Shown here piece after piece: positions 1 through 12,085 of a stretch of DNA of 12,475 bases. The first letter of the stretch is position 1; each line of letters begins with the position of its first letter. Source of the stretch: Enterococcus wangshanyuanii (GTDB lineage: Bacteria > Bacillota > Bacilli > Lactobacillales > Enterococcaceae). Location of the stretch: positions 1 to 12,475 of the forward strand of contig NZ_CP021877.1 in assembly GCF_002197645.1 (NCBI RefSeq), read 5' to 3'. Made by a program: the position numbers and the translations under genes. The notes below the pieces were generated by a model, which did not search any database, was not told the origin of the DNA, and worked only from the letters and a program-made list of their open reading frames with translations.

Positions 1-2
1 TT

Positions 3-167
3 GCCTTGCGACATCAGGCAGAGCAGTTACTAGTTGTTCAATATCGTTCAGAACCAATTAAGCAACTAACTCCTATTGACATTGCTTTTGCCCAAAGCCT
101 AAAAGAAATATGCGGTTGTGTAGACATAAACGTACTTGATTTCATTATTCGTGAAAGGCGCTGTTGA
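3..167 (+). CDS. 3' end of a RadC/JAB-domain-like protein (partial)
   Basis: An open frame runs from the window edge to a TGA at 165-167 and gives 54 residues ending in REERRC-like sequence (actual end FIIRERRC). The stretch TPIDIAFAQSLKEICGCVDI followed by NVLDFIIRER resembles the C-terminal end of RadC-type JAB/MPN domains, where a 'P...D...t..Lkea....gi.vlDhiIig' pattern is usual. The catalytic HxH...D part would lie upstream, outside the window. RadC-like proteins are common accessory genes on conjugative plasmids and integrative elements; their function there is unsettled. No start is visible. A GC-rich hairpin (156-174) overlaps the stop. Assignment rests on a short tail, so it is only moderately sure. 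Confidence 0.55.
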   Translation, partial: ALRHQAEQLLVVQYRSEPIKQLTPIDIAFAQSLKEICGCVDINVLDFIIRERRC

Positions 168-174
168 AGCGCCT
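156..174 (+). terminator. Hairpin at the end of the RadC-like gene
   Basis: AGGCGC, loop TGTTGAA, GCGCCT form a perfect 6-bp GC-rich stem overlapping the stop codon of the RadC-like frame. No run of T follows, so this is a weak candidate for a factor-independent terminator. It may instead protect the 3' end or attenuate read-through into the gene that starts at 223. Confidence 0.4.
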
Positions 175-222
175 CTCACAAGTGATTCCTTCCCCAAATA
201 AAAATATGAATAGGAGAATATC

Positions 223-767
223 ATGGAAAAAACATTTACATTTGAAGACTTCACTATAAAAAAAGGAATGGAGACTAATGGAACCCCCAATCATTTTTTA
301 TTGGTGAAGATATTGCTAGCGTTCATACAGATAAACATGAACTTCAAGTTTTTGCTTACAAATACAAAGAAAGTGAAACTGCTGAATACTTTGAAATGAA
401 CTTTGGAAAAAAAGAGCCGTATGATAATGAAGATTCTTATGATTTCGAACTCATTGAATCAGACGAGTTCTCTCCCACAGAAGCGAATTTGAATGACTAT
501 CATGAAATAATTGAATATCTCTGTAATAATTTTGTTTCAAATTTTATTAAAGCACCCCTTTGTTTTCCCTATATCAAATATATTGACCAAACGAATACAG
601 ATTCTCTTTGCTTACTATTTGTTGAACGTGACGACTTCAAACTCTATTCAGAAACTGACATACCACAAGAAAATTACAACTCTGAATTGACTTGGGAACT
701 CATTAACACTTTAGAAAAAGAAAAGAAAGTTTACTACACTGTGGAAATCATCAAAGATTATCATTAA
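223..767 (+). pseudogene. Hypothetical acidic protein, frameshifted near its start
   Basis: ATG at 223 follows a good ribosome binding site (TAGGAG, 211-216). The frame begins MEKTFTFEDFTIKKGMETNG and then breaks. A second frame opening at the C run 284-288 continues with PQSFFIGEDIASVHTDKHEL and runs through the open frame beginning at ATG 396 to the stop at 765-767. Adding one C to the five-C run joins both parts into one protein of about 181 residues, so a single-base loss is the simplest reading. The protein is rich in Asp, Glu and Tyr, with no signal peptide, membrane segment or motif I recognise. It ends 14 bp before the next start and so probably shared an operon with the gene at 782. 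If the break is real, the only fragment likely to be translated in the second frame starts at 396 (123 aa), without an obvious ribosome binding site. Confidence 0.7.
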
Positions 768-781
768 AGGAGAAATTCAAA

Positions 782-1221
782 ATGAACACTAATGAACAAA
801 TCAAAAATGAAGCAATTAAAAGAATGCGCCAATTAGATTTGTATGAGGAAGCTATAAACAAATTTATTCAATCAGGAACGGTCTGCAAATCTGAACCGAC
901 AAACCTTTCAATATTAGGGATTGGTTCCAGCGTTATCGGTACTATCTATGAGTTAACCAAAGAACAAAAGAAATTATTTCTGACTTCGAAAAAGAATACG
1001 ATTCTATGGTCTATCATGTGATCGAAACTAACACCGAATTTGGTTTAGTAAACGACCTTTTGTATGTTTCTAATAATACCGATCAGTGGGAAATGGAACA
1101 GGAAGACCTTTCCTATAAAACCCCATGTGTCTATTGTGTAAATACAACTTATCCGGACTATTCCGAATTTGGGTCAATTGGAATTCAATCTAGCGGTGGC
1201 GGATTAATCAGAGTAGGTTAA
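782..1221 (+). pseudogene. Hypothetical protein, paralogue of the 1834-2295 gene, frameshifted
   Basis: ATG 782 follows AAAGGAGAA at a good distance. The first frame (MNTNEQIKNEAIKRMRQLDL onward) reads to a TGA at 1019-1021. The rest of the protein lies in another frame (KEIISDFEKEYDSMVYHVIE onward) up to the stop ending at 1221. Inserting one A in the run 966-969 joins them into 146 residues. The reconstruction aligns along its length with the intact protein at 1834-2295: shared features are EAI.RM near the N-terminus, DFEKEY, VYH.I.T.T..G, LYV.....W, and a C-terminal FG.I......GGL. From memory it matches a family of small uncharacterised proteins found on Firmicutes mobile elements; I cannot give a function. 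A hairpin (1231-1263) follows. Confidence 0.75.
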
Positions 1222-1230
1222 TATCATTTA

Positions 1231-1263
1231 TCAGAGCCTTTGTAATGATTAAAGAGGCTCTGA
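1231..1263 (+). terminator. Hairpin after the 782-1221 gene, before structured element copy 1
   Basis: TCAGAGCC (1231-1238) pairs with GGCTCTGA (1256-1263), with a further TTT/AAA match inside. The following bases ATTCTTCTT are T-rich but not a clean T run, so terminator activity is plausible but not certain. It occupies the same relative place as the hairpin at 3826-3853 ahead of the second structured element. Confidence 0.55.
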
Positions 1264-1278
1264 ATTCTTCTTAATGAT

Positions 1279-1802
1279 AAAACACGATCACTCCCTTCAA
1301 GTCGTTAACGATCGAGTTTAGGCGTGCTTGCAGCTCGCCCTTATTATAGTCGCCGTGCGTTCCGCAAGTCGACAAGAGCCCACTCCGTGGTATGCATTCG
1401 CCCTGGGGCTCATGCTGCGCTTGAAACAACTCTAGATTCAGTCGTTCTCTCGGTTCGCTTCGCCTTCGTTCTCTTCCTTTGACGCTTCGCTATCTAGACT
1501 TCTTTCATCACCTGGTTACACCAGCTGACCGCTCTTTAGTTATGAGGGCCGCCTGCAGCGTCCCTCACCCCACTTGGCTGCGCCAATCGGGGGCCCTTTC
1601 AAACCACAGACAGTGTTTATTTTTTGTTCGACCTTTTCGGCAACTTCGTTGCCTATACCATAGGCTCCGCTCACATTTGCAAGGGAAAATGCATCTACAC
1701 CTGCAGCCAATTAAAATTGGTGCGGCTGTGTACGCCCTTGCAAATCGCTTCTCCTATGGTATTTGCCGGTCAAATCAAACAAAAAATAAAACATGTCTGA
1801 AG
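1279..1802 (+). repeat. Large structured direct repeat, copy 1 (candidate ncRNA or leader)
   Basis: This 524-bp non-coding block is repeated almost exactly at 3867-4388, in the same orientation. It is visibly richer in G and C than its neighbours and packed with inverted repeats: TGCG/CGCA (1356-1366), CCAC/GTGG (1380-1390), TCTAGAT/ATCTAGA (1431-1437 with 1492-1498), CTGGT/ACCAG (1512-1524), AGGGCC/GGCCCT (1545-1550 with 1592-1597) enclosing CCCC/GGGG and TTGG/CCAA, and GGCAAC/GTTGCC (1639-1653). The 3' part folds as a long rod: CAGACA and TTTATTTTTTGTT (1607-1628) with AACAAAAAATAAA and TGTCTG (1778-1799); ATACCATAGG (1655-1664) with CCTATGGTAT (1753-1762); ATTTGCAAGGG (1675-1685) with CCCTTGCAAAT (1735-1745); and CCAATT/AATTGG at the tip. 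Short ORFs here are not credible genes. A large structured RNA is the best reading; a MITE is the alternative. Which strand is transcribed is not certain; the + strand fits the ribosome binding site that follows. Confidence 0.8.
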
Positions 1803-1833
1803 TAACACCTCTCAGGCGCATAGGAGGAATTTT
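1751..1833 (+). promoter_or_regulatory. Possible Shine-Dalgarno sequestering switch, copy 1
   Basis: CTCCTATG (1751-1758), the 3' arm of a rod stem in the structured element, is exactly complementary to CATAGGAG (1819-1826), which contains the ribosome binding site of the gene starting at 1834. The same arm can instead pair upstream with ATACCATAGG (1655-1664). The two pairings exclude each other, as in translational switches. This is inferred from complementarity only. Confidence 0.4.
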
Positions 1834-2295
1834 ATGGATTACTTAGAAATTTTAAACGAATCTGAGTTAGAAATTGAAGCAATTAACCGAATGACTATTC
1901 TAGACATACAAAAAGAATTGATTTCTGATTTTCTTTTACATCGAACTGTATTTTGCTCTGAACTTGCAAGCGTAGGAATTCTTAATCCCTGTCCATTTGT
2001 AAAAAAATATGAATTAGAAGAAGACACCCCAAAAATGATAGAAGATTTTGAAAAAGAATATAAATGTCTTGTGTACCATACAATCAAAACTCTCACAGAT
2101 ACTGGAACTATTTATAATCTATTCTATGTTCGCGAAAACAAGGAAGATTGGGAAACCCAACAAGACGATATTTATGCTTCGCTTCCTTTTGTAGCAACTA
2201 TCAACTTTTCGTCACCGGAAAATGTTAAGTTCGGTCAGATCCAAGTCGGACATCTCACTGGTGGACTATATAACAGATTTTATGAGGAGAGATAA
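1834..2295 (+). CDS. Hypothetical small protein, intact paralogue of the 782-1221 gene
   Basis: The protein has 153 residues. ATG 1834 follows TAGGAGGA (1821-1828), a strong ribosome binding site directly after structured element copy 1. It is acidic and apparently cytoplasmic, with no membrane segment or known catalytic motif. Alignment by eye with the broken gene at 782-1221 shows the same order of blocks: E.EAI.RM...D near residues 13-25, DFEKEY near 70, VYH.IKT.T..G..Y.L.YV near 78-97, and FGQIQVGHLTGGL near 134-146. The function is unknown. The stop (2293-2295) is immediately followed by the next ATG at 2297, and the end of this gene contains the GAGGAGAG ribosome binding site of that gene, so the two are very probably co-transcribed and translationally coupled. 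This copy is open while its paralogue is broken, so it may be the functional one. Confidence 0.8.
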   Translation: MDYLEILNESELEIEAINRMTILDIQKELISDFLLHRTVFCSELASVGILNPCPFVKKYELEEDTPKMIEDFEKEYKCLVYHTIKTLTDTGTIYNLFYVRENKEDWETQQDDIYASLPFVATINFSSPENVKFGQIQVGHLTGGLYNRFYEER

Positions 2296-2296
2296 C

Positions 2297-3820
2297 ATGC
2301 TAAAAGATAGACTAAAAAGAGAACGGTACAAAGACCCAAACCCTGTATTTGATTTACTTTGCAATGATCTAAAACACTTAAACTCTGGTAGCAACAAAGT
2401 TTTGATACCCGACGCCGATTTAGGTGAACTTGCTCTTAGTTCCATGAAATTTCGATATGGAGTGAAGGAAGAATATGCCCTATTAGAAAAAGACTTTGAG
2501 AAATCAAACAACCTTGAAAATCAAGGATTCGAAGTAGTCGGTACTGATTTCTTAACGTTTGCCACACATATTGAATTTGACATTATTCTTTTAGATCCAC
2601 CCGTAGAAAAAAGTGAAGACTACTTGTTAAAAGCATTCGAACTCGCTCAAAAGCAAGTAGACAAAAGTTGCTACATTTCAGCGCTCATACGCGCTGACAT
2701 CATTCAAAATCCAAGCACAGCATTACAAGCAGCACTTGAAAACAACGAAACAGAAATAACCTTTCATAAAAATGTTAAGCCTGAATCAAAAGAAGAGGTC
2801 GCCCTAGTTCGCGTATCAGTCACTAAAGCGACAGATAATGTCCACAAGATTTATGACAGACTTTTAGCTACTAAAGGCTTTGAACCTGCTCAGACAGCAC
2901 TAGAAAGAGGTCTAAGCACCATTGTTTCTGATCGTGATCTTGAAGAGCGTTTTAAAAGATATCCGCTTTCTTATTAGTTCTTACAATGAACATATTTCTT
3001 TACTTAAGAAAAAATATCTGTTTGACAATTCACTCAATATGTTTGAGTCGATTATGAAACAAAAGCATAAATTTGGATCGTTTAGTTATAGACGAAATGA
3101 CCTAACTCTTAATCAGAAATAAAAAGCATTCGCAGTCAGTATTGGGAGAAAATCCTAAAAACTGACGAGTTCCGCAAAAAATTAACACGGCATGGATCAA
3201 GTTTGATCACTGATAAAATTGATTCCGCCACTAAACTTGAAATCACGGAAGAAAATGTTCTTTTATTGCTCACTGCTTTAATGTCAAATGGATATGAGGT
3301 AATTCTTGATAGTTGTGTAGAATGGTTCAAAAAAATGACCGGCAATCACCAAAATGAATACAGCAAAAACATTCACTACTACAATGGATTCAAGACAAAT
3401 GACGCCTTCAAGGTAAATTCAAAAATAATAATTCCTGCTTACCAAGCTTCATCTTATTATGAAACAGTATCATTCGGCTATGGTCATCCTTTAGAAGAAA
3501 ACTTTAAGCATATAACACACGGAATGCAAGACTACATGAACGATCTAATAACCATGTTTAAACTGATCAAACCAGATATTCCAACAACTTTTACTGCGAA
3601 TGACTACGGCGATTTAGAAAACGAATTTCTTCGTTTTAAAGTGTTCAAAAAAGGAACTATTCACATTTGGTTTAAAGACCTAGAAACACTTGATAAATTC
3701 AATCTAATATGTGGGCAAAAATTTGGTTGGGTTCCTTCATCTGAGGAAATGAAGCAAGATCCCGAAGCATTACGCTTTGCCAAAAATGAATTTCCAAATA
3801 TTCAAAACTTGCTGAATTAA
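2297..3820 (+). pseudogene. Methyltransferase-like / DUF4942-type protein, two frameshifts
   Basis: ATG 2297 is chosen because GAGGAGAG lies just upstream; an earlier in-frame start at 2222 would overlap the previous gene. Three frames join into about 507 residues. Part 1 (2297 to about 2953) looks like a class I SAM-dependent methyltransferase fold, with DFLTFATHIEFDIILLDPPV around residues 84-103. Part 2 (to about 3119) contains SSYNEHISLLKKKYLFDN. Part 3 (about 3120-3820) contains IRSQYWEKILKTDEFRKKLT and SKNIHYYNGFKTNDAFKVNS, typical of DUF4942 regions in mobile-element methyltransferases. Frames join if one base is removed at TTTTAAAA (2950-2957) and one A is added at 3117-3119. Motif I lacks the glycine loop (PDADLG instead of a PSAGTG-like loop) and motif IV is DPPV rather than [DN]PP[YFW], so even the repaired protein may not methylate. 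The family identification is from memory and fairly confident. Confidence 0.75.
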
Positions 3821-3825
3821 AACAA

Positions 3826-3853
3826 GAGTCTCTTTGCAAATGCAAAGAGACTC
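3826..3853 (+). terminator. Perfect hairpin after the methyltransferase-like gene
   Basis: GAGTCTCTTTGCA (3826-3838) and TGCAAAGAGACTC (3841-3853) are 13-base perfect inverted repeats only 2 bases apart, giving a strong stem. The following CCTCCTTACGG has no T run, so it is not a textbook intrinsic terminator. It sits just before structured element copy 2, matching the arrangement at 1231-1263. Confidence 0.6.
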
Positions 3854-3866
3854 CCTCCTTACGGAG

Positions 3867-4388
3867 AAAACACGATCACTCCCTTCAGGTCGTCAACGAT
3901 CGAGTTTAGCGTGCTTGCAGCTCGCCCTTATCATAGTCGCCGTGCGTTACGCAAGTCGACAAGAGCCCACTTCGTGGTATGCATTCGCCCTGGGGCTCAT
4001 GCTGCGCTTGAAACAACTCTAGATTCAGTCGTTCTCTCGGTTCGCTTCGCCTTCGTTCTCTTCCTTTGACGCTTCGCTATCTAGACTTCTTTCATCATCT
4101 GGTTACACCAGCTGACCGCTCTTTAGTTATGAGGGCCGCCTGCGTCGTCCCTCACCCCACTTGGCTGCGCCAATCGGGGGCCCTTTTAAACCACAGACAG
4201 TGTTTATTTTTTGTTCGACCTTTTTCGGCAACTTCGTTGCCTATACCATAGGCTCCGCTCACATTTGCAAGGGAAGATACACCTACACCTGCAGCCATTA
4301 TAAATTGGTGCAGCTGTACGCCCTTGCAAATTGCTTCTCCTATGGTATTTGCCGGTCAAATCAAACAAAAAATAAAACATGTCTGAAG
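3867..4388 (+). repeat. Large structured direct repeat, copy 2 (candidate ncRNA or leader)
   Basis: This is the second copy of the block at 1279-1802. I count roughly twenty differences over 522 bp. The main stems are kept: GGCAAC/GTTGCC, ATACCATAGG (4243-4252) with CCTATGGTAT (4339-4348), TTTGCAAGGG with CCCTTGCAAA, and the TTTATTTTTTGTT/AACAAAAAATAAA rod base. Several differences fall in loops: TGCG-TTC-CGCA becomes TGCG-TTA-CGCA, and CCAC-TCC-GTGG becomes CCAC-TTC-GTGG, while the stems do not change. That pattern favours selection on the fold. Unlike gene duplicates, the neighbours of the two copies are unrelated upstream, and downstream only the ribosome-binding region is similar. No coding potential is supported. 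Confidence 0.8.
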
Positions 4389-4422
4389 GGAAGGTCTCAT
4401 GCATGACTTAGGAGGAATTCTT
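4337..4422 (+). promoter_or_regulatory. Possible Shine-Dalgarno sequestering switch, copy 2
   Basis: CTCCTA (4337-4342) in the rod arm is complementary to TAGGAG (4409-4414), the ribosome binding site of the gene starting at 4423. The pairing is shorter than in copy 1 (6 against 8 bases) and any element ending in CTCC could do this by chance, but the arrangement is the same in both copies. Confidence 0.3.
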
Positions 4423-4751
4423 ATGGAACCAGGTAAACTAATAGTCGCAAAAAAAGTAAATGGTGAAGTACAAACTGAATTACTACTCTTTTGAGCCCCT
4501 TGACCGACATTAGTATGCTTCTGGTACAAACAAATTTATTTTCAATGGATCTTAGTAAAACACTCACTGTCTTTCACGGATTGTATCTTCCTGATCAAGC
4601 AAAAGAAACCATCACTATTCGCTGGGAAGATCGCATTGAAACATTTACCGGCAGCATTATATTTGCTGGTCGTGATTTACTAAAAAATGTTCTCAGCTTG
4701 GACCCGATTGCTGTAGAGGAAGTCAGAATAAAATTAAAGGAGATCAAGTAG
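4423..4751 (+). pseudogene. Hypothetical protein, frameshifted
   Basis: ATG 4423 follows TAGGAGGA (4409-4416). The first frame reads MEPGKLIVAKKVNGEVQTEL then LLF and stops at TGA 4492-4494. A second frame open from 4491 reads SPLTDISMLLVQTNLFSMDL and continues to the stop ending at 4751. Adding one T to the run 4489-4492 gives a single protein of about 109 residues. Charged and hydrophobic residues alternate as in a small beta-rich protein, for example TITIRWEDRIETFTGSIIFA. I do not recognise a family. The stop is one base before the next ATG (4753), and the end of this gene supplies that gene's AAGGAGA ribosome binding site, so the two form a coupled pair. Confidence 0.65.
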
Positions 4752-4752
4752 C

Positions 4753-4948
4753 ATGAAAAAAACTGATCATCTTGCTTTTTATGCACCATCTAGTACGCGC
4801 AGCAAAGGGTATTCTGGTCCTATTTTCAATAGGAATCATACTATTGAGCATCCAAACCTATCAAGCTCAAACCCACTCGTATCAATCAAATGTAATTGTT
4901 TTTACCGGCATTCTATCGTTAATTTTTCTTTTTTGCTGGAGAGATTGA
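4753..4948 (+). pseudogene. Small two-segment membrane protein, frameshifted at its start
   Basis: ATG 4753 is preceded by AAGGAGATC. Read directly from this ATG the frame gives a non-descript 70-residue product. If the seven-A run 4756-4762 is shortened by one A, the frame becomes MKKLIILLFMHHLVRAAKGI and continues to TGA 4946-4948, for 64 residues. That version has two clear hydrophobic segments, GILVLFSIGIILLSI and VIVFTGILSLIFLFCW, separated by a polar stretch, and a positively charged N-terminus. This is far more protein-like, so I take a one-base insertion as the explanation. An internal ATG in this frame could give a shorter product. Function unknown; it is coupled to the upstream gene. 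Confidence 0.6.
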
Positions 4949-5021
4949 GTAAAATGCTGATTTAATTGGGCTAATTGTGTAAAATGAATGAGAGCAACTA
5001 TTCTGAAGGAGGAAATACATT

Positions 5022-5492
5022 ATGGAAAATGCAACATGCAAATACTGCGGAACGGATCTAGATCAACACTTGACCTGCTCATACTGCAGCATAACTTTTT
5101 CTCCGGAAGAAGTATGTTTCAATCAGGAACGCCCACATCAAATGGTCGATAGCATTCCAATTATCGACGACTTCGAAACAATGATTTTTGAGCTTATGTC
5201 GCGACCAACTGAGACATTGCTTAAAGAGAAAACGATCACTCTTTACTATCTTTTGCGTGCAGCAAGAAAAGCAAAAGATAAATACTTCAGAGCAAAAGAC
5301 CAGGAACGTCTGACGTTCTTCCAAAAGAAAGTATATACCATCGAAAATATTCTACTGGAGAGAGAAGGAACATTCCCGTTGTCGATCTCTGATAACTTGC
5401 TGAAGAAAAAAAGTATTCAGGTCAACAAGTTTGAGCAGTCACTTGCTGAGAACAACAGAGATAAAATGACTAGACTCATTATCCGAATGTAA
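5022..5492 (+). CDS. Zinc-ribbon hypothetical protein
   Basis: The protein has 156 residues. ATG 5022 follows AAGGAGG at optimal spacing. The N-terminus carries Cys6-x2-Cys9 and Cys19-x2-Cys22 (CKYCGTDLDQHLTCSYC), a compact zinc-ribbon knuckle pair. The remainder is rich in Lys, Glu, Leu and Arg and predicted helical, with a basic stretch around YYLLRAARKAKDKYFRAKDQ (about residues 75-94). It could bind nucleic acid or a protein partner; I cannot name a family. It is the last gene of the left array and ends just before a bidirectional terminator (5518-5567). It is intact, unlike its four upstream neighbours at 223, 782, 2297 and 4423 and the small membrane gene at 4753. It has a 73-bp upstream gap in which I could not identify a convincing promoter. 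Confidence 0.8.
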   Translation: MENATCKYCGTDLDQHLTCSYCSITFSPEEVCFNQERPHQMVDSIPIIDDFETMIFELMSRPTETLLKEKTITLYYLLRAARKAKDKYFRAKDQERLTFFQKKVYTIENILLEREGTFPLSISDNLLKKKSIQVNKFEQSLAENNRDKMTRLIIRM

Positions 5493-5517
5493 CAAACAAC
5501 TAATAATAAAAATGAAA

Positions 5518-5567
5518 AAAAGAGTTAAAAACATGTCATAAGTGCTTTTAACTCTTTTGATTTTTTT
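5518..5567. terminator. Bidirectional intrinsic terminator
   Basis: AAAAGAGTTAAAA (5518-5530) and TTTTAACTCTTTT (5546-5558) form a 13-bp perfect stem with a 15-base loop, followed on the + strand by GATTTTTTT and on the - strand by a T-rich complement. It lies between the zinc-ribbon gene (+) and the abiH remnant (-), which converge here. Confidence 0.85.
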
Positions 5568-5921
5568 CATTGTATCGACTTTATCAGATTGGTTTCTTCG
5601 TCATACTCAATCTGGATCTCTTTTACTTTTAGCCTGCATTCAAGACTAAGCTTATGCAACAAGTTTTTTCCATGATCCTTATTATCTAGCGTTTCTCCAT
5701 ACCTTTTGATCAATTTCGTAATCGCCTCTAAACACTGAGGAAAAGCATTCTTTGAATAATTTACGTAATAGAAAATAAGATCCACATCACTATCATAGAT
5801 ATTGTAGTAGTCAAAGATTGATTGAAAATAGGAATAATCAGCAACACTTAATGAGTGACCAAAAAATATGATTTGCTCAATATTTTTTGGCATTTTTAAC
5901 GTCACTTTTTGCCAATGAATC
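5567..5921 (-). pseudogene. abiH: abiH-like abortive infection gene, 5' end lost at transposon junction
   Basis: On the - strand an open frame runs from the transposon border at 5921 to TGA at 5567-5569. It encodes a C-terminal fragment of about 117 residues beginning IHWQKVTLKMPKNIEQIIFF. The block IIFFGHSLSVADYSYFQSIF followed by DYYNIYDSDVDLIFYYVNY is characteristic of the C-terminal part of AbiH-family phage-resistance proteins, where a GHSL..D motif is conserved. Family members are usually about 300 residues or more, so most of the gene is missing. The frame is in phase right up to the inverted repeat and reaches a stop (TGA) within it, which shows that the transposon edge truncates the gene. 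The missing 5' part is not on the other side of the transposon. A GTG at 5905 is the only in-frame start, without a convincing ribosome binding site. Confidence 0.8.
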
Positions 5922-5959
5922 GGGGTTCACGTATCAATGGAACGAAATTTTACTCTAAG
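5922..5959 (+). repeat. Left terminal inverted repeat (IRL) of the Tn3-family transposon
   Basis: The 38-bp end starts GGGGTTCACGTATCA, contains TGGAACGAAATTTTAC and ends TCTAAG. It has the Tn3-family signature (GGGG start, central TGGAACGAAA, TAAG end). It matches the right end with four mismatches in the first 32 positions or fewer by my reading. Confidence 0.9.
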
Positions 5960-6051
5960 ATTTCTTACATGAATTTGTAAACCCTATAAAATCAACGTTT
6001 CTAAATTTAATTATGAGAACTTACTCATTTTACAGAGGTTTTCTCTCGGAA

Positions 6052-6073
6052 CAATGGAACGAAATTTTACGGT
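6052..6073 (+). repeat. Internal extra copy of the inner half of the inverted repeat
   Basis: CAATGGAACGAAATTTTAC (6052-6070) is an exact 19-base direct repeat of 5935-5953 inside IRL. The next bases GGTA match the corresponding inner bases of the right end instead of the left. The outer part of the repeat (GGGG through GTAT) is not present here. In Tn3-family ends the inner part is the main transposase-binding domain, so this may be an extra binding site or a relic of an end rearrangement. Confidence 0.75.
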
Positions 6074-6090
6074 AGGGGTTAAAACACGAA

Positions 6091-6129
6091 CAATAAAAAG
6101 AGCTATCTATCTTTTTTAGATAAATAGCT
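6091..6129 (-). terminator. Intrinsic terminator of tnpA
   Basis: On the - strand AGCTATTTATCT, loop AAAAAA, AGATAGATAGCT form a 12-bp stem with one G-T wobble, followed by CTTTTTATTG. It starts a few bases after the tnpA stop codon at 6136-6138. Confidence 0.8.
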
Positions 6130-6135
6130 GTGTGA

Positions 6136-9129
6136 TTATTGTCCTAAGGGACGAAATTCTCCTTCGTTTAATTGCTCATTATATTTGAAAGAATATTTCC
6201 CCATGAAATTAATGTGTTCTGATACTAGAGGGGAAGAGAATTGAAGAACTTCTTCTTGTATTTGGTTCTCTGAATTAGCTTCCTGAAGTTGTTCTATAGC
6301 TTTTTCCATATAAAGCGTGTTCCAATAAATAATTATATTTGCAACAAGTCCTAAAGCGTTTAATTGGTTTTCCATACCATCAAAATAGCTTTGATAGATT
6401 CGTCCATTTTTACCATAGCATATTTTTCTATACAAGCTATGGCGAGATTCTCCTTTATTCAGTTGTTCTAGAATATTTCGTGCGTATTCTTCATCAGATA
6501 GATATCTGAGTTGATGTTTTGTTTTAAATATTTTTCCAACTTCAATTAATGCACGCCCCAATGGAGTAGGATTTCCTTGATGTTGGAGAGCACGAATAAG
6601 ATAGCTGGCTTGGACGGTTCCTGATTTTAGAGAACCTGCAATTCGTAAGATATCATCCCACTCTTGCTCTATAATTGTTGTATTTATAGTATTTTTTGAA
6701 TGTTCGTTCAGAATTTTGTAATTAGCATTTTTGTCTATTCTCCATATTTTTGTTTCGTTTGCTTTAGCTATTCGGGGGCTAAATTGAAAACCTAGTATTC
6801 CAAATAATCCAAATACAAGATCACTGTATCCAGCAGTATCAGTCATTATCTGACTAGGTGTTAATGTACTTGTTTGATTTAACAGTCCTTCAAGCAAATA
6901 GACTGAATCTCTAATCGTCCCAGAAATAACCATACCATGAAATCCAACATAGGAATCAGATAGAAAGTTATAGTATGTGATCCCTTTACCTCGACCAAAA
7001 TATTTAGGGTTCCGTCCTGAATGTAGAGATTTCTTTGGTGTAGTAAAGCGTATACCGTCCGCTGAAGCCATATCTCCTGTTCCCCATATATAAGGTAAAG
7101 CAAGTTTCTGATAGGCGTCTACGACCTTATTATTGGCTGCTGTTAAAGTATCTAATCGTATATAGTTTTGATTGACGTAGGATAAGCGGTCATTTTTTAA
7201 ACTTTCTGTACTCTTCTTAGCAACGGGTGACAGCCCTATATTGCACGCTTCAGCTAATAACACTGCTAAGATACTTATATCCAGCTCTTTCATACGCGAT
7301 CGATTTTCATTTAAATGTGAAAAACACTCTGTAAGCCTTAGTCGCTGATTTACCTCTAATAATATTTCAGGAAGGTCAACAATGGGAAGATTTCTATGAA
7401 TTTCCTCAATAAGACGTGGTTTAGATAAACTTTGTCTTTTTAGCGGACTAATAATCAATTCTGTTTGTCCATTTTTTTCCTCTATCCTAGCCATGTTGCT
7501 ATTATTCCAGTTTTTTAGTGTTTCTCTATAAGACATTTCTAAACTGATTTTAAAATCTTCTACAGCAATAGCTCCGTCCTCTGCAAGACCTAACTGATTT
7601 ACAAAGGATTTTCTTTGCTCATTCCATACATTTTTAGGTATTAGATTTTGCAATGGATCATTATATCTATGACTATAAGGGACATAAACAGTATGTGTCT
7701 TTATGCCTTTTATAAAAAGTTCCATAGCAGCAATTATGATTCCTTTATTAGCATATGCTTGATTTTTATCGATAAAATTATGCCACTTGGTTGGCAGATA
7801 GTCTTGTATTTTTTCAAAATCTTGATATCGAAGAAATAGATCTCCTTTATCTCTTAAAAAAGACCAAATATAAGCTACTGGACTATCTTTATCACTAACT
7901 AAAAAAGGAATATGAGCAAGAATATCCGGAAGTAACCTTTTAAATTTTGAAAATGAGTTTAATAATTCTTTGATTGCCACAGGTTCTTTATCCGAACTCA
8001 CAATACGTTTTACTTTTGACACAGCTGCTACTATCTCTTGTTTCTCGCGTAGCTCTAAAACATAATCTAACAGCTTCTCAGGTGGAGTTTGTTCGTCAAT
8101 CAGATCCTCTACAATATGAGACAGCATGGCTGCTGCATTGTCCAAATCTTTTAGTGATCGGAGTCGTTCTTGCTGTTCCTTTTTCTTTGCAAGGTTGATA
8201 ATACTAGTAAAATACTTTTCTAATGCTAATAATAATTCGTCCATAGCAACTGATCGATACTCTGCAATAAATGAAACTAGGTAAGCTAAACGTCTACTTT
8301 CAGGCATACGCTGAATACTTTGCGATTTGGCTTTAGCTGTATACTCAGCATATAATTTTATCTTCCCTTTAGGAATCTGGCTGAAATCCCAAAAATCAAC
8401 TGAAAAAGAAGCAAATTCTTTTATTCTTTGAAATCCACGTTTAATCTCATAATAAGACGGTTCTTTTAGAGGTTCTCTTAAAGCGTCCAACTTTACTGTA
8501 AACAAAGACGTTTTTCCTTCCATAAAAAACAGCGTCAATTGATTGATTCGTTCAATTTCCTTCTTACTAGGAATATTTACAATTGCTTGCTCTATATCTT
8601 TGGTTACAGCGTCTATAATGCGCGATATAAACCGTTCGAATGTAGTAAGACCTGGGAGAATTATTTTTTCGTTTATACACTTATTCAAGAAACGATCAGC
8701 AAGAAGAGTTGTTTGCTCTGTAGAATACCAAGCACCTTCATATATCCACTGCTCTAAATAATCTAAAACGGCTTGGTCATGGAACTGCCTGTAAGAGTAT
8801 AGTTCCTGAATCATGAGTGCATGCTGCTTGATTGTAGGAATTCTTGTATAGTAAGAGAACATACGACTTTCAATAGACAACTGCTCTGCCATGTACTCTA
8901 TTACTTCATTAGGAACATTTGTTAAATCAGAAAGAAATGTTCCTAAAAATCGTACAGTCCCTAACTGTACTGCAAAACCAATTTTAGTACTATCGTTTCG
9001 CAAAGTTTTAATAATTGATTTGTCATAATCGTCCAAATGAAAGTATTTCACTAATTGTTCATCGGAAGGAAGGCCCGCATAAGATCCAAAAGACTGTTTT
9101 TGTTCTTTACTCATTATCTGTACAGGCAT
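6136..9129 (-). CDS. tnpA: Tn3-family transposase TnpA
   Basis: The protein has 997 residues, the normal length for Tn3-family transposases, which cut both transposon ends and drive replicative transposition through a cointegrate. The N-terminal start MPVQIMSKEQKQSFGSYAGL and the following HLDDYDKSIIKTLRND region match the DUF4158-type DNA-binding domain. The C-terminal half carries the DDE-type catalytic core: I place the acidic residues at about D691 (ASADGIRF), D764 (IMTDTAGYSD) and E894 (NKGESRHSL), each in a well-conserved block. The frame is intact. The ATG is directly adjacent to the tnpR stop (TAA then ATG), with AGGTGA upstream inside tnpR, so translation is coupled to tnpR. A terminator follows at 6091-6129. 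The enzyme should recognise the 38-bp ends at 5922 and 9966. Confidence 0.95.
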   Translation of the reverse strand: MPVQIMSKEQKQSFGSYAGLPSDEQLVKYFHLDDYDKSIIKTLRNDSTKIGFAVQLGTVRFLGTFLSDLTNVPNEVIEYMAEQLSIESRMFSYYTRIPTIKQHALMIQELYSYRQFHDQAVLDYLEQWIYEGAWYSTEQTTLLADRFLNKCINEKIILPGLTTFERFISRIIDAVTKDIEQAIVNIPSKKEIERINQLTLFFMEGKTSLFTVKLDALREPLKEPSYYEIKRGFQRIKEFASFSVDFWDFSQIPKGKIKLYAEYTAKAKSQSIQRMPESRRLAYLVSFIAEYRSVAMDELLLALEKYFTSIINLAKKKEQQERLRSLKDLDNAAAMLSHIVEDLIDEQTPPEKLLDYVLELREKQEIVAAVSKVKRIVSSDKEPVAIKELLNSFSKFKRLLPDILAHIPFLVSDKDSPVAYIWSFLRDKGDLFLRYQDFEKIQDYLPTKWHNFIDKNQAYANKGIIIAAMELFIKGIKTHTVYVPYSHRYNDPLQNLIPKNVWNEQRKSFVNQLGLAEDGAIAVEDFKISLEMSYRETLKNWNNSNMARIEEKNGQTELIISPLKRQSLSKPRLIEEIHRNLPIVDLPEILLEVNQRLRLTECFSHLNENRSRMKELDISILAVLLAEACNIGLSPVAKKSTESLKNDRLSYVNQNYIRLDTLTAANNKVVDAYQKLALPYIWGTGDMASADGIRFTTPKKSLHSGRNPKYFGRGKGITYYNFLSDSYVGFHGMVISGTIRDSVYLLEGLLNQTSTLTPSQIMTDTAGYSDLVFGLFGILGFQFSPRIAKANETKIWRIDKNANYKILNEHSKNTINTTIIEQEWDDILRIAGSLKSGTVQASYLIRALQHQGNPTPLGRALIEVGKIFKTKHQLRYLSDEEYARNILEQLNKGESRHSLYRKICYGKNGRIYQSYFDGMENQLNALGLVANIIIYWNTLYMEKAIEQLQEANSENQIQEEVLQFSSPLVSEHINFMGKYSFKYNEQLNEGEFRPLGQ

Positions 9130-9744
9130 TTAGTCACCTGCCATTTCTTGTTCGAACTCTTTTACTCGACGATAAAATGTGCTTGGGGACAATTCTAGTT
9201 TATTTATAGTATCAGTTGCTGTTTGCTCCCCATTTTTCCAACTAAAATACTGTCTTTTGAATTCTTCTGTTATTGCCAATTTAGGTCTACCAAAGACCGT
9301 ACCAGCAGATTTTGCAATTTCAATCCCTTCAGTTTGACGCAGTTTGCTCTTCTTTCGTTCCTGATCTGCTACATAAGAAAGCATGCTCAAAAACTGATCT
9401 TCTAATAAAAGACCAATGTCCCCCATAGTTTTAAACTTTCTACTATCAAATAATTCTGAATTTTCTAGAACAATAATATCTGCTTTTATCTTTCTTGTAA
9501 TATACTTCCATTCTTCAATTACACCAGAATAGTTTCTCCCTAAACGATCTAAAGAGTCTAAGTAAACAATATCTCCAGAACGAAGCATATGAAGTAATAG
9601 TTGATACTGTGGACGATCAAACTCAGCACCTGATTGTTTATCGACAAATATATAACGAGATTCAATACCTAAATCATTAAACTTCTGTATTTGTCGATCT
9701 AAATTTTGTTCTTTAGTGGAAACTCTAGCATAGCCAAAAAGCAT
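9130..9744 (-). CDS. tnpR: Serine resolvase TnpR
   Basis: This 204-residue small serine recombinase resolves cointegrates at res and usually represses its own operon. The N-terminal catalytic domain starts MLFGYARVSTKEQNLDRQI with the nucleophile Ser9; downstream LDSLDRLGRN (about residues 62-71) holds the conserved arginines, and EDQFLSMLSYVADQERKKSK leads into the long E helix. The C-terminal domain contains GRPKLAITEEFKRQYF and a helix-turn-helix (NKLELSPSTFYRRVKEF). The ATG at 9744 follows AAAGGAGAA. Length and motifs are complete. The res-like palindromes lie just upstream between the gene and the right transposon end, and tnpA follows immediately in the same operon. Confidence 0.95.
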   Translation of the reverse strand: MLFGYARVSTKEQNLDRQIQKFNDLGIESRYIFVDKQSGAEFDRPQYQLLLHMLRSGDIVYLDSLDRLGRNYSGVIEEWKYITRKIKADIIVLENSELFDSRKFKTMGDIGLLLEDQFLSMLSYVADQERKKSKLRQTEGIEIAKSAGTVFGRPKLAITEEFKRQYFSWKNGEQTATDTINKLELSPSTFYRRVKEFEQEMAGD

Positions 9745-9764
9745 GTTTATTTTCTCCTTTCATA

Positions 9765-9876
9765 TATCAAAATGTCATTAATAATTATGACACATATCAA
9801 AAGTGAAAAACATAGGTTTTGACACATGGTTTTGCATAAGAAAAGACTTTATCAAAAAGTATACTTTTTGACAGAC
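9765..9876 (-). other. res site with resolvase-binding subsites
   Basis: TCAAAAAGTATACTTTTTGA (9852-9871) is a perfect 20-bp palindrome flanked by more resolvase half-site sequence (TTTTTGACAG), and is the likely crossover site I, farthest from tnpR. Nearer tnpR, TGTCATTAATAATTATGACA (9773-9792) is a dyad with TGTCAT/ATGACA ends, and further half-sites (TTTTGACAC at 9817-9825, TATCAAAAGTG around 9795) make up the other subsites. The tnpR promoter is expected to overlap these sites, giving autoregulation. Exact subsite borders are my estimate. Confidence 0.7.
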
Positions 9877-9928
9877 CAAATTTAGAAAAACAAACATTAT
9901 TATAGAGAAGAACCAAAACATTCGACTT

Positions 9929-9966
9929 TATACCGTAAAGTTTCGTTCCACTGATACCTGAACCCC
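9929..9966 (-). repeat. Right terminal inverted repeat (IRR) of the Tn3-family transposon
   Basis: Read on the - strand it begins GGGGTTCAGGTATCA, then GTGGAACGAAACTTTAC and GGTATA. It pairs with IRL at 5922-5959; the innermost six bases differ from IRL. Confidence 0.9.
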
Positions 9967-9970
9967 GTTC

Positions 9971-10292: not shown

Positions 10293-10754
10293 TCACGAAT
10301 CTCTCCGAAGAAAATGCCACCACTTTTTGTCCGGCACTGGATCAGGAACTGGTTGTTCTTCAGCTGAAGATTGTTTTTCTTCAGGAGTTTCAGATCCAAT
10401 TTGTAATTGAGCTTCCAGCTGCTCAATTCTCTTGTTCGACTGAAGGGTGAGTTGTTGTTGTTGATCGAGCAGCCTCTGCATTGTATTCATTTCTTCATTT
10501 TTTACTCGTAATTGTTCACGTAAAAAATCAACTTCAGTGTGCGAATTGGTTGTTGAATTAGTATGCGATTTAGTTGTTGTTTTATCAGTAGAAAGCTTTG
10601 ATTTTATAAGGTTTTCTTGCTTTTTGGAAATCACATACTTATTGCCTACTTTATTAAGTTTTGTATTCAATTTTAGTGTGCGAATTATTTTATCAACGTA
10701 TGATTTACTTATTCCTAATTCATCAGCAAGTTCTTTTATGGTTTTATCAGCCAT
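10293..10754 (-). CDS. Replication-associated HTH/coiled-coil protein (DUF536-like)
   Basis: The protein has 153 residues. It is encoded directly after rep and overlaps its last 8 bases (ATGGCTGA holds this start and the rep stop). ATG 10754 is preferred over the in-frame GTG at 10763 because GAAGG lies at proper distance from it. The N-terminus (ADKTIKELADELGISKSYVD) is a helix-turn-helix. A Ser/Thr-rich linker follows, then a long coiled coil (about residues 75-120, including DFLREQLRVKNEEMNTMQRL) with a glutamine run, and a basic aromatic tail KKWWHFLRRDS. This architecture is typical of the second gene of Rep_3-type plasmids in Lactobacillales, thought to affect copy number or stability; its precise role is not established. 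It probably binds DNA near the origin. Confidence 0.85.
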   Translation of the reverse strand: MADKTIKELADELGISKSYVDKIIRTLKLNTKLNKVGNKYVISKKQENLIKSKLSTDKTTTKSHTNSTTNSHTEVDFLREQLRVKNEEMNTMQRLLDQQQQLTLQSNKRIEQLEAQLQIGSETPEEKQSSAEEQPVPDPVPDKKWWHFLRRDS

Positions 10755-11748
10755 TATTCTCACCTTCAGACGTGGAATCGCTAAGAACTTGATCCCAATA
10801 TTTTTCTAAATCAAAATTCATAAGGGTAGCTAAGGTATCTAAAAATTGTGTAGCATTAGGCATTCTGTAAGTATCAATTTCTCTAGCTTCAGAGAACAAC
10901 TCTGCTTGTACTTCAAAAGAGCGATCACGGAACTTCATTGCTTTTTGGAAAAACTCTTCTTGAAGTTTTTTCTTTCTTTCTTGGTCATCTTTTTCAGCTG
11001 CAAGAATATCTTCAGGAACTATTTCAGAGCGGATAGGAATTTTTTTCTTTTTAGCTTCATCAAAGTTTATCCATTCTCCTGTTTTTTCGGCTTGCCAAGT
11101 AAAACAATAACCTATAATAGGATTCCCTCTGGTTTTTGCCTTTTTTAGAGTGACTTTCAACCCTTTAAAATAATTTATCAGTTCATCTTGAATAGGTTTC
11201 AACACTCGTTTATTAATATCGGATTGTGCATAAGACTTGGGAATGTCTAATAGTTCATGAAACTCTTCTTTTTTAAATTCTTTAATACCTTGAGTTCGCC
11301 ATTGCTTTAGTATTCTATAAGTAGTTTTTGCATATGTAGAGCGGATTTGAGTGAATTCTTCCAATTCAAAACTAGTAAAATTAGCGTTGAGTTGATTCAA
11401 TATATATTCAAATTCATCGGAAATAGATATTGTTACATTTTGACTTTCAAAGTCTACTTCAAACTTCTTAAATAATGTCATGACAACTTTCTTTTTAGTT
11501 GTGCGTTCTTTATAGATTAGTTGCGCTACCTTATCAGTTACTCGATCCATGATATCATTCCAACGCTGGTTATAGTCACCAGAAAAATGAGTCAATTCTT
11601 TCAGTTCTGCTGACTCAAACTTCAATATATTTGTTTGGTTCTCCCTAGCTTTGGCTATTATAGCAAAGAAAAAATTCATTTCCTCTTTACTCCATCGTCT
11701 CATAACTACGGTATTTAAGTCGTTGTGATATTTAGTAACCTCGTTCAA
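10747..11748 (-). CDS. rep: Plasmid replication initiator, Rep_3/RepB family
   Basis: I choose the TTG at 11748 as start (333 residues), because GGAGGG sits 7 bases upstream and the product then begins NEVTKYHNDLNTVVMRRWSK, as related initiators do. The longer frame from 11790 would place 14 odd residues ahead of it and use no good ribosome binding site. RRWSKEEMNFFFAIIAKARE (from about residue 16) is the family signature of the first winged-helix domain; the second winged helix covers about residues 115-215 (for example FTQIRSTYAKTTYRILKQWR). The C-terminus is charged. The protein should bind the iterons at 11809-11914, melt the origin and recruit host helicase. The gene is followed by an overlapping partner gene. 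Expression is probably limited by Rep binding to iterons that adjoin the promoter. Confidence 0.92.
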   Translation of the reverse strand: MNEVTKYHNDLNTVVMRRWSKEEMNFFFAIIAKARENQTNILKFESAELKELTHFSGDYNQRWNDIMDRVTDKVAQLIYKERTTKKKVVMTLFKKFEVDFESQNVTISISDEFEYILNQLNANFTSFELEEFTQIRSTYAKTTYRILKQWRTQGIKEFKKEEFHELLDIPKSYAQSDINKRVLKPIQDELINYFKGLKVTLKKAKTRGNPIIGYCFTWQAEKTGEWINFDEAKKKKIPIRSEIVPEDILAAEKDDQERKKKLQEEFFQKAMKFRDRSFEVQAELFSEAREIDTYRMPNATQFLDTLATLMNFDLEKYWDQVLSDSTSEGENNG

Positions 11749-11773
11749 TAATAGTCCCTCCAATTCAAGAAAT

Positions 11774-11803
11774 AGAGTACTACATAACAATATTAAAAGT
11801 CAA
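11774..11803 (-). promoter_or_regulatory. Likely rep promoter
   Basis: On the - strand TTGACT (11798-11803) and TACTCT (11774-11779) are 18 bases apart, just downstream of the iteron array and 25 bases before the TTG start. The short distance to the iterons fits autoregulation by Rep, which is inferred. Confidence 0.5.
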
Positions 11804-11808
11804 TATAT

Positions 11809-11914
11809 CGAATGACCTTTATAACACCGCAAAATGACCTTTGTAACACCGCAAAATGACCTTTATAACACCGCAAAATGACCTTTATAACACCGCAAAA
11901 TGACCTTTATAACA
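11809..11914 (+). repeat. Iteron array of the replication origin (5 x 22 bp)
   Basis: Five tandem 22-bp units with core TGACCTTTATAACACCGC begin at 11809, 11831, 11853, 11875 and 11897. Unit 2 has TTTGTAAC in place of TTTATAAC, unit 1 begins CGAA instead of AAAA, and unit 5 diverges after TATAACA. The spacing of 22 bp (two helical turns) is typical of Rep_3-type plasmids, in which Rep binds each unit. The array is directly upstream of rep. Confidence 0.95.
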
Positions 11915-12085
11915 GGCTTTAAGTCTTGTGAGAGTAAGCCTCAAGCGATCGCTAAACATATATTTAAACATCTTTTAAACATTTAGTAAACAGTTCAAGG
12001 ACAAAATCTCCCGCCCGAATTCCCCTCTTTTTTTTTCAAACAGGTTCGCGAATTTTGATGGATAAAAAATAATCAACAAAAAGGA

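Follow-up and report, generated by a model that had tools for sequence, protein, structure and literature searches.

What is the densely structured element of about 523 bp that occurs twice on a small contig of Enterococcus wangshanyuanii, and what could it do there? The window, by which we mean the whole stretch of DNA analysed, is contig C4 (NZ_CP021877.1; 12,475 bases) of a 4.16-Mb genome of five contigs, and the element occupies positions 1279–1802 (copy 1) and 3867–4388 (copy 2). Our reading, to which we give a probability of roughly 0.6, is that each element is a leader of plasmid establishment genes that is activated in single-stranded DNA (ssDNA), a counterpart of Frpo of plasmid F that resembles in function the EGeRS1 elements of Bacillus plasmids. 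Folding energies, gains of G·T over A·C pairs and GNA triloops all point to a preference of the conserved fold for the strand that is the template of the downstream gene.

The two copies agree in 504 of 525 alignment columns (96%; 17 mismatches and 4 gap columns) and lie in the same orientation, with a GC content of 0.50 and 0.49 against 0.356 for the window. Forming the gene-proximal end of each is a rod on the minus strand, which in copy 1 is about 190 nt long with an A/T-rich base (1607–1799, from the inverted repeat and folds) and in copy 2 spans 4194–4385 (from the inverted repeat and fold). Its perfect arms of 13, 10 and 11 bp were confirmed by eye in copy 1 (1616–1628/1778–1790, 1655–1664/1753–1762 and 1675–1685/1735–1745). 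The template strand of copy 1 folds at −93.7 kcal/mol, compared with a dinucleotide-shuffle mean of −61.6 (z −7.3, 25 shuffles), the folded stretch being the 489-nt aligned part (window about 1358–1846), which reaches 44 nt beyond the element. An earlier note, made from the sequence, had described a duplicated, GC-enriched and highly structured element with such a rod and with copy differences that respect stems, all of which is borne out; new here are the preference of the fold for the minus strand and the ribosome-binding site after each copy.

The most conserved block, also on the minus strand, lies at 1419–1530 in copy 1 and 4006–4117 in copy 2 (E 1.2e-18 and 2.2e-18 with covariance model R1, built from 11 sequences with window copy 1 among them). 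Contained in it is the DNA mini-hairpin motif d(GCGNAGC), whose N is the only position to vary among 11 aligned copies; on the minus strand it reads GCGAAGC at 1484–1490 of copy 1 (11-copy alignment) and recurs in the sequence of copy 2 at 4071–4077. Overlapping the motif of copy 1 is the hexamer TAGCGA (1487–1492). A further template-strand motif, CAAGGG[CG][TG]TAC[AG], lies on the minus strand at 1729–1740 in copy 1 and, by sequence, at 4315–4326 in copy 2, and is also found in the EGeRS1 elements of pLS20 and pBS72.

Directly after each element a plus-strand reading frame begins. A Shine–Dalgarno sequence, AGGAGG, with its ATG is found at 1822–1836 after copy 1 and at 4410–4425 after copy 2, and the minus strand, favoured by the fold, is the template of the gene at 1834 and of the frame starting at 4423. 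A Shine–Dalgarno sequence and ATG in the same direction lie downstream of all 24 copies examined (18–19 of them clearly distinct); in five (Ef1, Ef4, LX2, Eg1 and M1, by eye) a few tens of additional bases lie in between. The identity between copies 1 and 2 ends at the rod base, about 20 bases 5′ of the Shine–Dalgarno sequence. Among the identities proposed in the earlier note for a non-coding element, a leader agrees with this placement; a new RNA runs counter to the DNA-type loops described below.

The elements are a previously unannotated family on Enterococcus plasmids. Eight matches lie in the source genome, on contigs C2, C3 and C4, those on C2 and C3 being near-identical copies. A homologue search, suggested in the earlier note, recovered diverged copies on other plasmids of the genus, namely E. 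faecalis pEK4S (4), E. gallinarum pEG001 (4), Enterococcus sp. LX10 (2) and M190262 (3), and another Enterococcus species (G014, taken as Enterococcus rivorum) has three copies, 78–79% identical, on a single contig; plasmids carry 2–4 copies. A pattern scan of genome contigs placed the conserved-block pattern in Enterococcus rivorum LMG 25899, on a contig of 85,487 bp. Within the genus R1 matches 2 of 22 genomes (G000 and G014), and within the order 3 of 395, the third belonging to another family and holding four copies (E 3e-10 to 0.007). At locus L058 (G178:C2, 41–11601) are four diverged copies adjoining a DUF4942 gene, on a plasmid whose relaxase is of the MobA/MobL family rather than MobP2; a UmuC-like polymerase gene is nearby on L057. 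A relative of the rod was found on an E. faecium MobP2 plasmid (profile search, E 2e-9), its template strand again the more stable (−102.1 versus −90.1), and the stretch containing it is present on 512 plasmid records, 511 from Enterococcus and mostly from E. faecium among those listed. A phage collection contains no match to copy 1; the conserved-block pattern occurs twice on one IMG/VR contig.

Folding and loop statistics were computed on 18 of the 24 copies, leaving out the near-identical C3b, C3c, C2a, C2b and C2c and the divergent Eg1. For the 69 strand-neutral pairs with variation on both sides, 0.861 of cells are Watson–Crick, compared with a mean of 0.560 in the null (maximum 0.617), and doubly compensated pairs number 61 where 21.6 are expected (maximum 31) in 300 tree simulations that keep the number of changes per column. 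As the structure used in this test came from the same alignment, folds of single copies were also transferred across clades: template-strand folds are 0.58–0.85 Watson–Crick plus 0.04–0.10 G·T in other clades (together 0.68–0.89), against at most 0.47 in slid controls.

The template strand is the more stable in all 16 Enterococcus copies folded on both strands (Ef1 and M1 left out of the 18), with RNA and with DNA parameters, and likewise in all 20 BLAST-confirmed pLS20, pBS72 and B. pumilus EGeRS1(-like) windows (for EGeRS1-B with DNA parameters, −165.7 for the template versus −136.2 kcal/mol for the coding strand). These 20 are the confirmed copies among 24 Bacillus windows; one more, overlapping a B. 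licheniformis copy, favours the template, and the three that are missing an element favour the coding strand or are mixed. For both window copies, G014, pLS20, B. pumilus and pBS72, six of the eight sequences compared, the strand difference lies beyond all 25 dinucleotide shuffles. Substitutions point the same way: read on the template strand, strand-neutral pairs hold 79 G·T and 32 A·C cells, and independent gains on the tree number 38 G·T versus 17 A·C (p 0.006), or 35 versus 16 (p 0.011) when the pairs are taken from the other strand.

The loops that close these hairpins are DNA-type (GNA/GNYA) and not RNA-type GNRA. Counted at stems of at least five Watson–Crick pairs in the 18 copies, with homologous hairpins of related copies included and thus not independent, GNA triloops number 27 on the template and one on the coding strand among 48 distinct triloop hairpins, and G..A tetraloops nine and two among 35 tetraloops; all nine template-strand tetraloops are GNYA and none is GNRA. 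Per copy, the template strand holds 2–7 such loops and the coding strand 0–1, in 18 of 18 copies. Outside the elements, 191 kb of the same and related plasmids gave 19 template and 18 coding GNA loops of 296 triloops, and 24 and 13 G..A loops of 296 tetraloops. Within the 24-kb pEK4S locus, GNA triloops on stems of six or more number 23 versus 0, all inside its four elements. Structured RNAs prefer GNRA loops, and the RNA counterparts of GNA loops are less favoured. In DNA, extraordinary stability is reported for mini-hairpins with GNA or GNNA loops, GCGAAGC having a melting temperature near 78 °C (PMC4686876). This signature is not general to MobP2 plasmids, the pFac74, L. paracasei, Listeria, Priestia and B. 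velezensis loci showing no cluster. In B. pumilus one template-side hairpin recurs in 6 of 7 (L028) and 2 of 7 (L027) BLAST-defined copies, and the B. licheniformis strand pattern is mixed. The strand bias of GNA loops may help to find other elements that act as ssDNA.

Is the folded strand the one that enters the recipient? The nic site of pWBG749 is reported to be delimited to within CCTTATGCTCTTACGG, with hairpins 5′ of the core of the origin of transfer (oriT), and the core CTTATGCTCTT to lie upstream of the relaxase genes on four other plasmids (O'Brien 2015, PMC4652767). The 10-mer TTATGCTCTT is located upstream of the relaxase gene in all 16 MobP2 loci for which that interval was fetched, preceded on its 5′ side by inverted repeats whose arms differ in sequence, a 3′ repeat not being universal; L014, L022 and L039 each contain one further occurrence at a distance from the relaxase. 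On 11 of the 12 replicons that carry both, the core strand (CTTATGCTCTT) is the template strand of the element genes: pEK4S, E. faecalis ES-11, LX10, pEG001, M190262, E. rivorum, pLS20, pBS72, B. licheniformis SRCM103529, B. velezensis V3.14 and E. faecium AUSMDU00004028. As several are close relatives, they amount to perhaps seven independent cases. On AUSMDU00004028 both oriT and the element operon have the reverse orientation with respect to the transfer genes. At E. faecium locus L041 (NZ_CP027514.1) the oriT core (18773–18782) is inverted with respect to the transfer operon, which is not so at the other MobP2 loci checked. The elements lie downstream of the core by about 6–14 kb on six Enterococcus replicons and about 14–37 kb on four Bacillus plasmids. 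Transfer downstream of the core is usual for relaxases with a 5′ hairpin. If this applies here, the coincidence of core strand and template strand makes the folded strand the transferred one, and the template strand of the element genes should be that which enters the recipient.

The simplest account that brings these observations together would be the following sequence of events. In an established host, where the plasmid is duplex DNA, the downstream genes would be silent. On entering a recipient single-stranded, the plasmid would present as its transferred strand the template strand of the element genes, which would fold into the rod and several GNA-triloop hairpins. Host RNA polymerase would probably be recruited at or near the A/T-rich rod base, would start there and would transcribe the downstream genes, giving the elements a putative promoter activity. 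Expression would presumably be transient, with second-strand synthesis erasing the fold and turning the genes off; the same RNA could also prime that synthesis. The genes after elements in relatives include MazEF, an N-6 methylase and DUF4942, and the downstream genes are likely to be establishment genes.

A number of observations weigh against this reading. For Ef2 and Eg3, two of the eight, the strand difference falls within the shuffles, and composition explains part of the strand energy bias. Over pairs that vary on both sides, G·T minus A·C cells come to 26, well within the tree null (standard deviation 36); this weaker cell test and the event-count test about offset each other. Strand-biased mutation (C to T on the folded strand) could mimic the G·T excess, and unpaired C is scarce on that strand. 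Coding-strand folds transfer between clades nearly as well (0.59–0.87), so the transfer test shows structure and not strand. No single base pair reaches E<0.05 in a tree-aware per-pair covariation test on the 18 sequences, and for that reason only aggregate covariation is claimed; the covariation among diverged homologues that the earlier note had proposed as a test is present in sum, and no single pair passes.

Other such observations concern transfer. On the twelfth replicon, G000:C3, the oriT core is wrongly oriented and 118–125 kb from the elements; the copies there share 99% and 97% identity with window copy 1. The E. faecium element lies about 39.5 kb from oriT along the inferred transferred strand, a distance at which it is not 'leading'. 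Contigs C2 and C4 carry no oriT core (in the window, none within one mismatch) and no match to the three relaxase families searched, so the two copies of the window plasmid may be inert passengers. The pLS20 nick has been mapped to the opposite strand by run-off sequencing (PMC5313138), a published result in direct conflict with the inferred transferred strand. On the grounds of that nick strand and of no visible promoter, ssDNA promoters were rejected for EGeRS1 in PMC8708921. The EGeRS1 elements of pLS20 and pBS72 are also without GNA clusters (none at stems of six or more).

The promoter search likewise weighs against it. No conserved −35/−10 is found in the alignments inspected by eye, nor a conserved sigma-A promoter in the rod by eye or by a consensus scan, and that scan shows no plus-strand sigma-70-like site inside either copy. 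The absence of a plus-strand promoter is, if only suggestively, in agreement with the lack of a constitutive promoter in EGeRS1. On the minus strand both copies contain promoter-like sites (1343–1372, TCGACT-18-TATAAT; 3930–3959, TCGACT-18-TATGAT) that point out of the element towards the upstream gene.

Four other explanations were weighed. The one that survives best, although we consider it unlikely, is that each element is only a single-strand origin, the folded transferred strand recruiting RNA polymerase or primase as in ssoA and ICEBs1 sso1, with the position before genes incidental. Strand-biased, DNA-type folding and the CS-6 hexamer TAGCGA in the most conserved block would suit such an origin. 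The hexamer is short, however, and shares bases with the GCGNAGC hairpin motif; a single origin would not need as many as four copies per plasmid, and all 24 copies precede a Shine–Dalgarno sequence.

Somewhat less probable again is an element that works from the plus strand as an mRNA leader (riboswitch-like or an attenuator), or purely as a duplex-DNA insulator that blocks readthrough. EGeRS1-B of pLS20 is reported to have no constitutive promoter and to block upstream transcription only in its native orientation (PMC8708921), as an insulator would, and the near-equal transfer of coding-strand folds also fits a plus-strand structure. Against this, the plus strand forms the weaker fold in all 16 copies and gains A·C mismatches where the minus strand gains G·T, the GNA loops are on the other strand, and the expression of the genes is left unexplained.

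We see only a slim chance for a structured antisense or trans-acting RNA made from the minus strand, an ornate large RNA of the kind to which the earlier note had drawn attention. The fold is conserved with compensatory changes, gains of G·T over A·C fit RNA as well as DNA, and a promoter-like site on the minus strand (1856–1829, 9 of 12 matches) points into copy 1. No such site lies at the matching place of copy 2, however, and the scan as a whole returned 10 sites versus 14.1 in shuffles; identity between the copies ends at the rod base, which leaves no shared promoter for such an RNA. GNA triloops, G..A tetraloops that are GNYA with 0 of 9 GNRA, and orientation coupled to the oriT core also stand against it, as does the lack of any Rfam family at gathering score. 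Only weak, unrelated Rfam matches appear at E≤1 (window) or E≤10 (copy 1), and neither ROOL nor GOLLD, the classes named in the earlier note, is among them. At the gathering threshold no Rfam family covers the elements of pEK4S, E. gallinarum and E. faecium or the EGeRS1 and Frpo regions fetched; four plasmid loci gave only unrelated small RNAs, outside the elements, and the EGeRS1 and Frpo loci gave the same outcome. One candidate identity, the Enterococcus-1 RNA of Rfam, scored 13.3 bits (E 5.8) with the conserved block (window 1411–1540, minus strand) and was set aside as a chance match; that family may be worth re-examining as a candidate for ssDNA rather than RNA. A Pistol ribozyme match (69.1 bits) was seen at 26917–26985 of B. 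pumilus pSHB9 (L028), just after the end of an ssb gene (26430–26915).

A miniature inverted-repeat transposable element (MITE) spread between operons, as the earlier note had allowed, would account for several near-identical copies per replicon and is otherwise barely credible, there being no terminal repeats or target duplications (best terminal inverted repeats 5 and 9 nt; flank direct repeat 3 nt) and a fixed orientation before genes.

Directly 3′ of copy 1 is a 153-amino-acid (aa) open reading frame of no known family (1834–2295, plus strand), followed on the same strand by a methyltransferase-like/DUF4942 gene region (2222–3820) with two frames (2222–2977 and 3203–3820), the methyltransferase similarity being weak (E 0.0072). 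Family searches assigned nothing else among the window genes 3′ of the elements. Window positions 2222–3820, 782–1221 and 4401–4754 hold shorter, split frames where contig C2 has intact single frames (532, 146 and 117 aa); these are either pseudogenes or assembly errors. Just 5′ of copy 1 is an inverted repeat (1232–1262, strand undefined) that the terminator scan did not call and that is perhaps the end of the preceding operon; just 5′ of copy 2 is another (3824–3855), terminator-like on the minus strand only in the same scan.

Over window positions 1–9966 the identity to part of C3 is 99.8%, and C2 matches 9.98 kb of the window equally well. At 5921–9967 is a Tn3-family transposon (transposase 6136–9129, resolvase 9130–9744) with 33-nt inverted repeats (91%). 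The segment that the window has in common with C2 and C3 stops at its right end, which suggests a plasmid rearrangement driven by the transposon. At 10747–11920 a Rep3-type replication initiator gene adjoins 22-bp direct repeats (iterons), and the two together probably mark a small theta-replicating plasmid.

How far might an ssDNA-activated leader extend beyond this plasmid? We put at about even odds the broader proposal that MobP2/pLS20-type Gram-positive plasmids carry a large, unrecognised class of ssDNA promoters, comprising the Enterococcus elements, the E. faecium relative on 512 records and Bacillus EGeRS1, with the Enterococcus ones built from DNA-specific GNA mini-hairpins on the transferred strand, and that the rejection of such promoters for EGeRS1 rested on a mis-assigned nick strand. 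A 2024 survey of leading regions is described as omitting MOBP2, for which the assigned leading regions showed no anti-defence enrichment (PMC11541004); on that description the present class lies outside it. A match to a MobP2-like relaxase is present on 1,074 plasmid records. If true, the proposal would settle how plasmids of Gram-positive hosts turn on their anti-defence and maintenance genes immediately upon entry, and, to judge from the number of records with the E. faecium relative, such a switch may be widespread among plasmids found in the clinic. The bias towards the template strand, the DNA-type loops and the orientation of the oriT core open the matter of ssDNA promoters to direct tests.

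Among known systems, ROOL and GOLLD RNAs are similar in size and structural density. The present elements differ from them in their DNA-type loops, and in a fold that favours the template strand of the next gene, and neither RNA is among their Rfam matches. The likeness to ssoA lies in a six-base match within the most conserved block; the elements differ from it in being multi-copy and pre-genic. Further features of ssoA are RSB and primer-RNA activity. The six bases, TAGCGA, are given as the CS-6 hexamer of single-strand origins in PMC10378824.

Closest in build is EGeRS1, described as 420–750 bp long, with 51% GC on a 38% GC plasmid and dense inverted repeats, and as standing immediately before the ribosome-binding site of each pLS20 establishment operon, by a mechanism left unexplained there (Val-Calvo 2021, PMC8708921). 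This is the one study of plasmid EGeRS1 found, and others may be in print. Shared with it are size, a GC content near 50% against a GC-poor plasmid background, closely packed inverted repeats, the presence of several copies on one plasmid, a place directly 5′ of the ribosome-binding site and a template strand that folds better; the Enterococcus relatives, too, are on plasmids with a MobP2 relaxase and pLS20-type transfer genes. The motif CAAGGG[CG][TG]TAC[AG], chosen after seeing the sequences, occurs in 16 of 18 Enterococcus copies and 8 of 9 pLS20 and pBS72 elements, in each case on the template and never on the coding strand, and is absent from all 11 B. pumilus windows and from the B. licheniformis windows. 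Identity to pLS20 EGeRS1 stays below the 60% mark, with only these 12 nt in common; R1 finds no Bacillus match at E≤1 and the best reciprocal nhmmer scores are about 1 bit. Homology of the two families was considered and is unsupported beyond the one motif. EGeRS1 has been described in bacilli, the present elements occur in Enterococcus and one further Lactobacillales family, and the clusters of GNA loops in the Enterococcus elements are not shared by EGeRS1 of pLS20 and pBS72.

Closest in proposed action is Frpo, whose regions on plasmid F served as a positive control. Present there, where Frpo1 and Frpo2 are reported, are two repeats of about 555 bp, 89% identical and 5.4 kb apart, a length at which the objection that EGeRS1 is too long for an ssDNA promoter loses force. 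With DNA parameters the template strand is favoured at 8165–8643 (−119.1 versus −111.6) and at 13500–14032 (−137.7 versus −122.2) of F (L029), each beyond all 25 shuffles, and each region has one GCGACCG-GAA-CGGTCGC hairpin on the template strand. According to the title of a paper by Masai and Arai, the Frpo transcript reportedly also primes second-strand synthesis. Frpo is reported to drive early expression of leading genes and to reconstitute −35/−10 boxes, deletion of Frpo1 or Frpo2 abolishing early reporter expression in transconjugants (PMC9849209). The present elements differ in that no reconstituted −35/−10 was found in them, and R1 has no match in Frpo at E≤1; common to both are duplicated GC-rich repeats before genes (in F, those of the leading region), a template-strand bias in folding energy and a GNA hairpin on the template strand.

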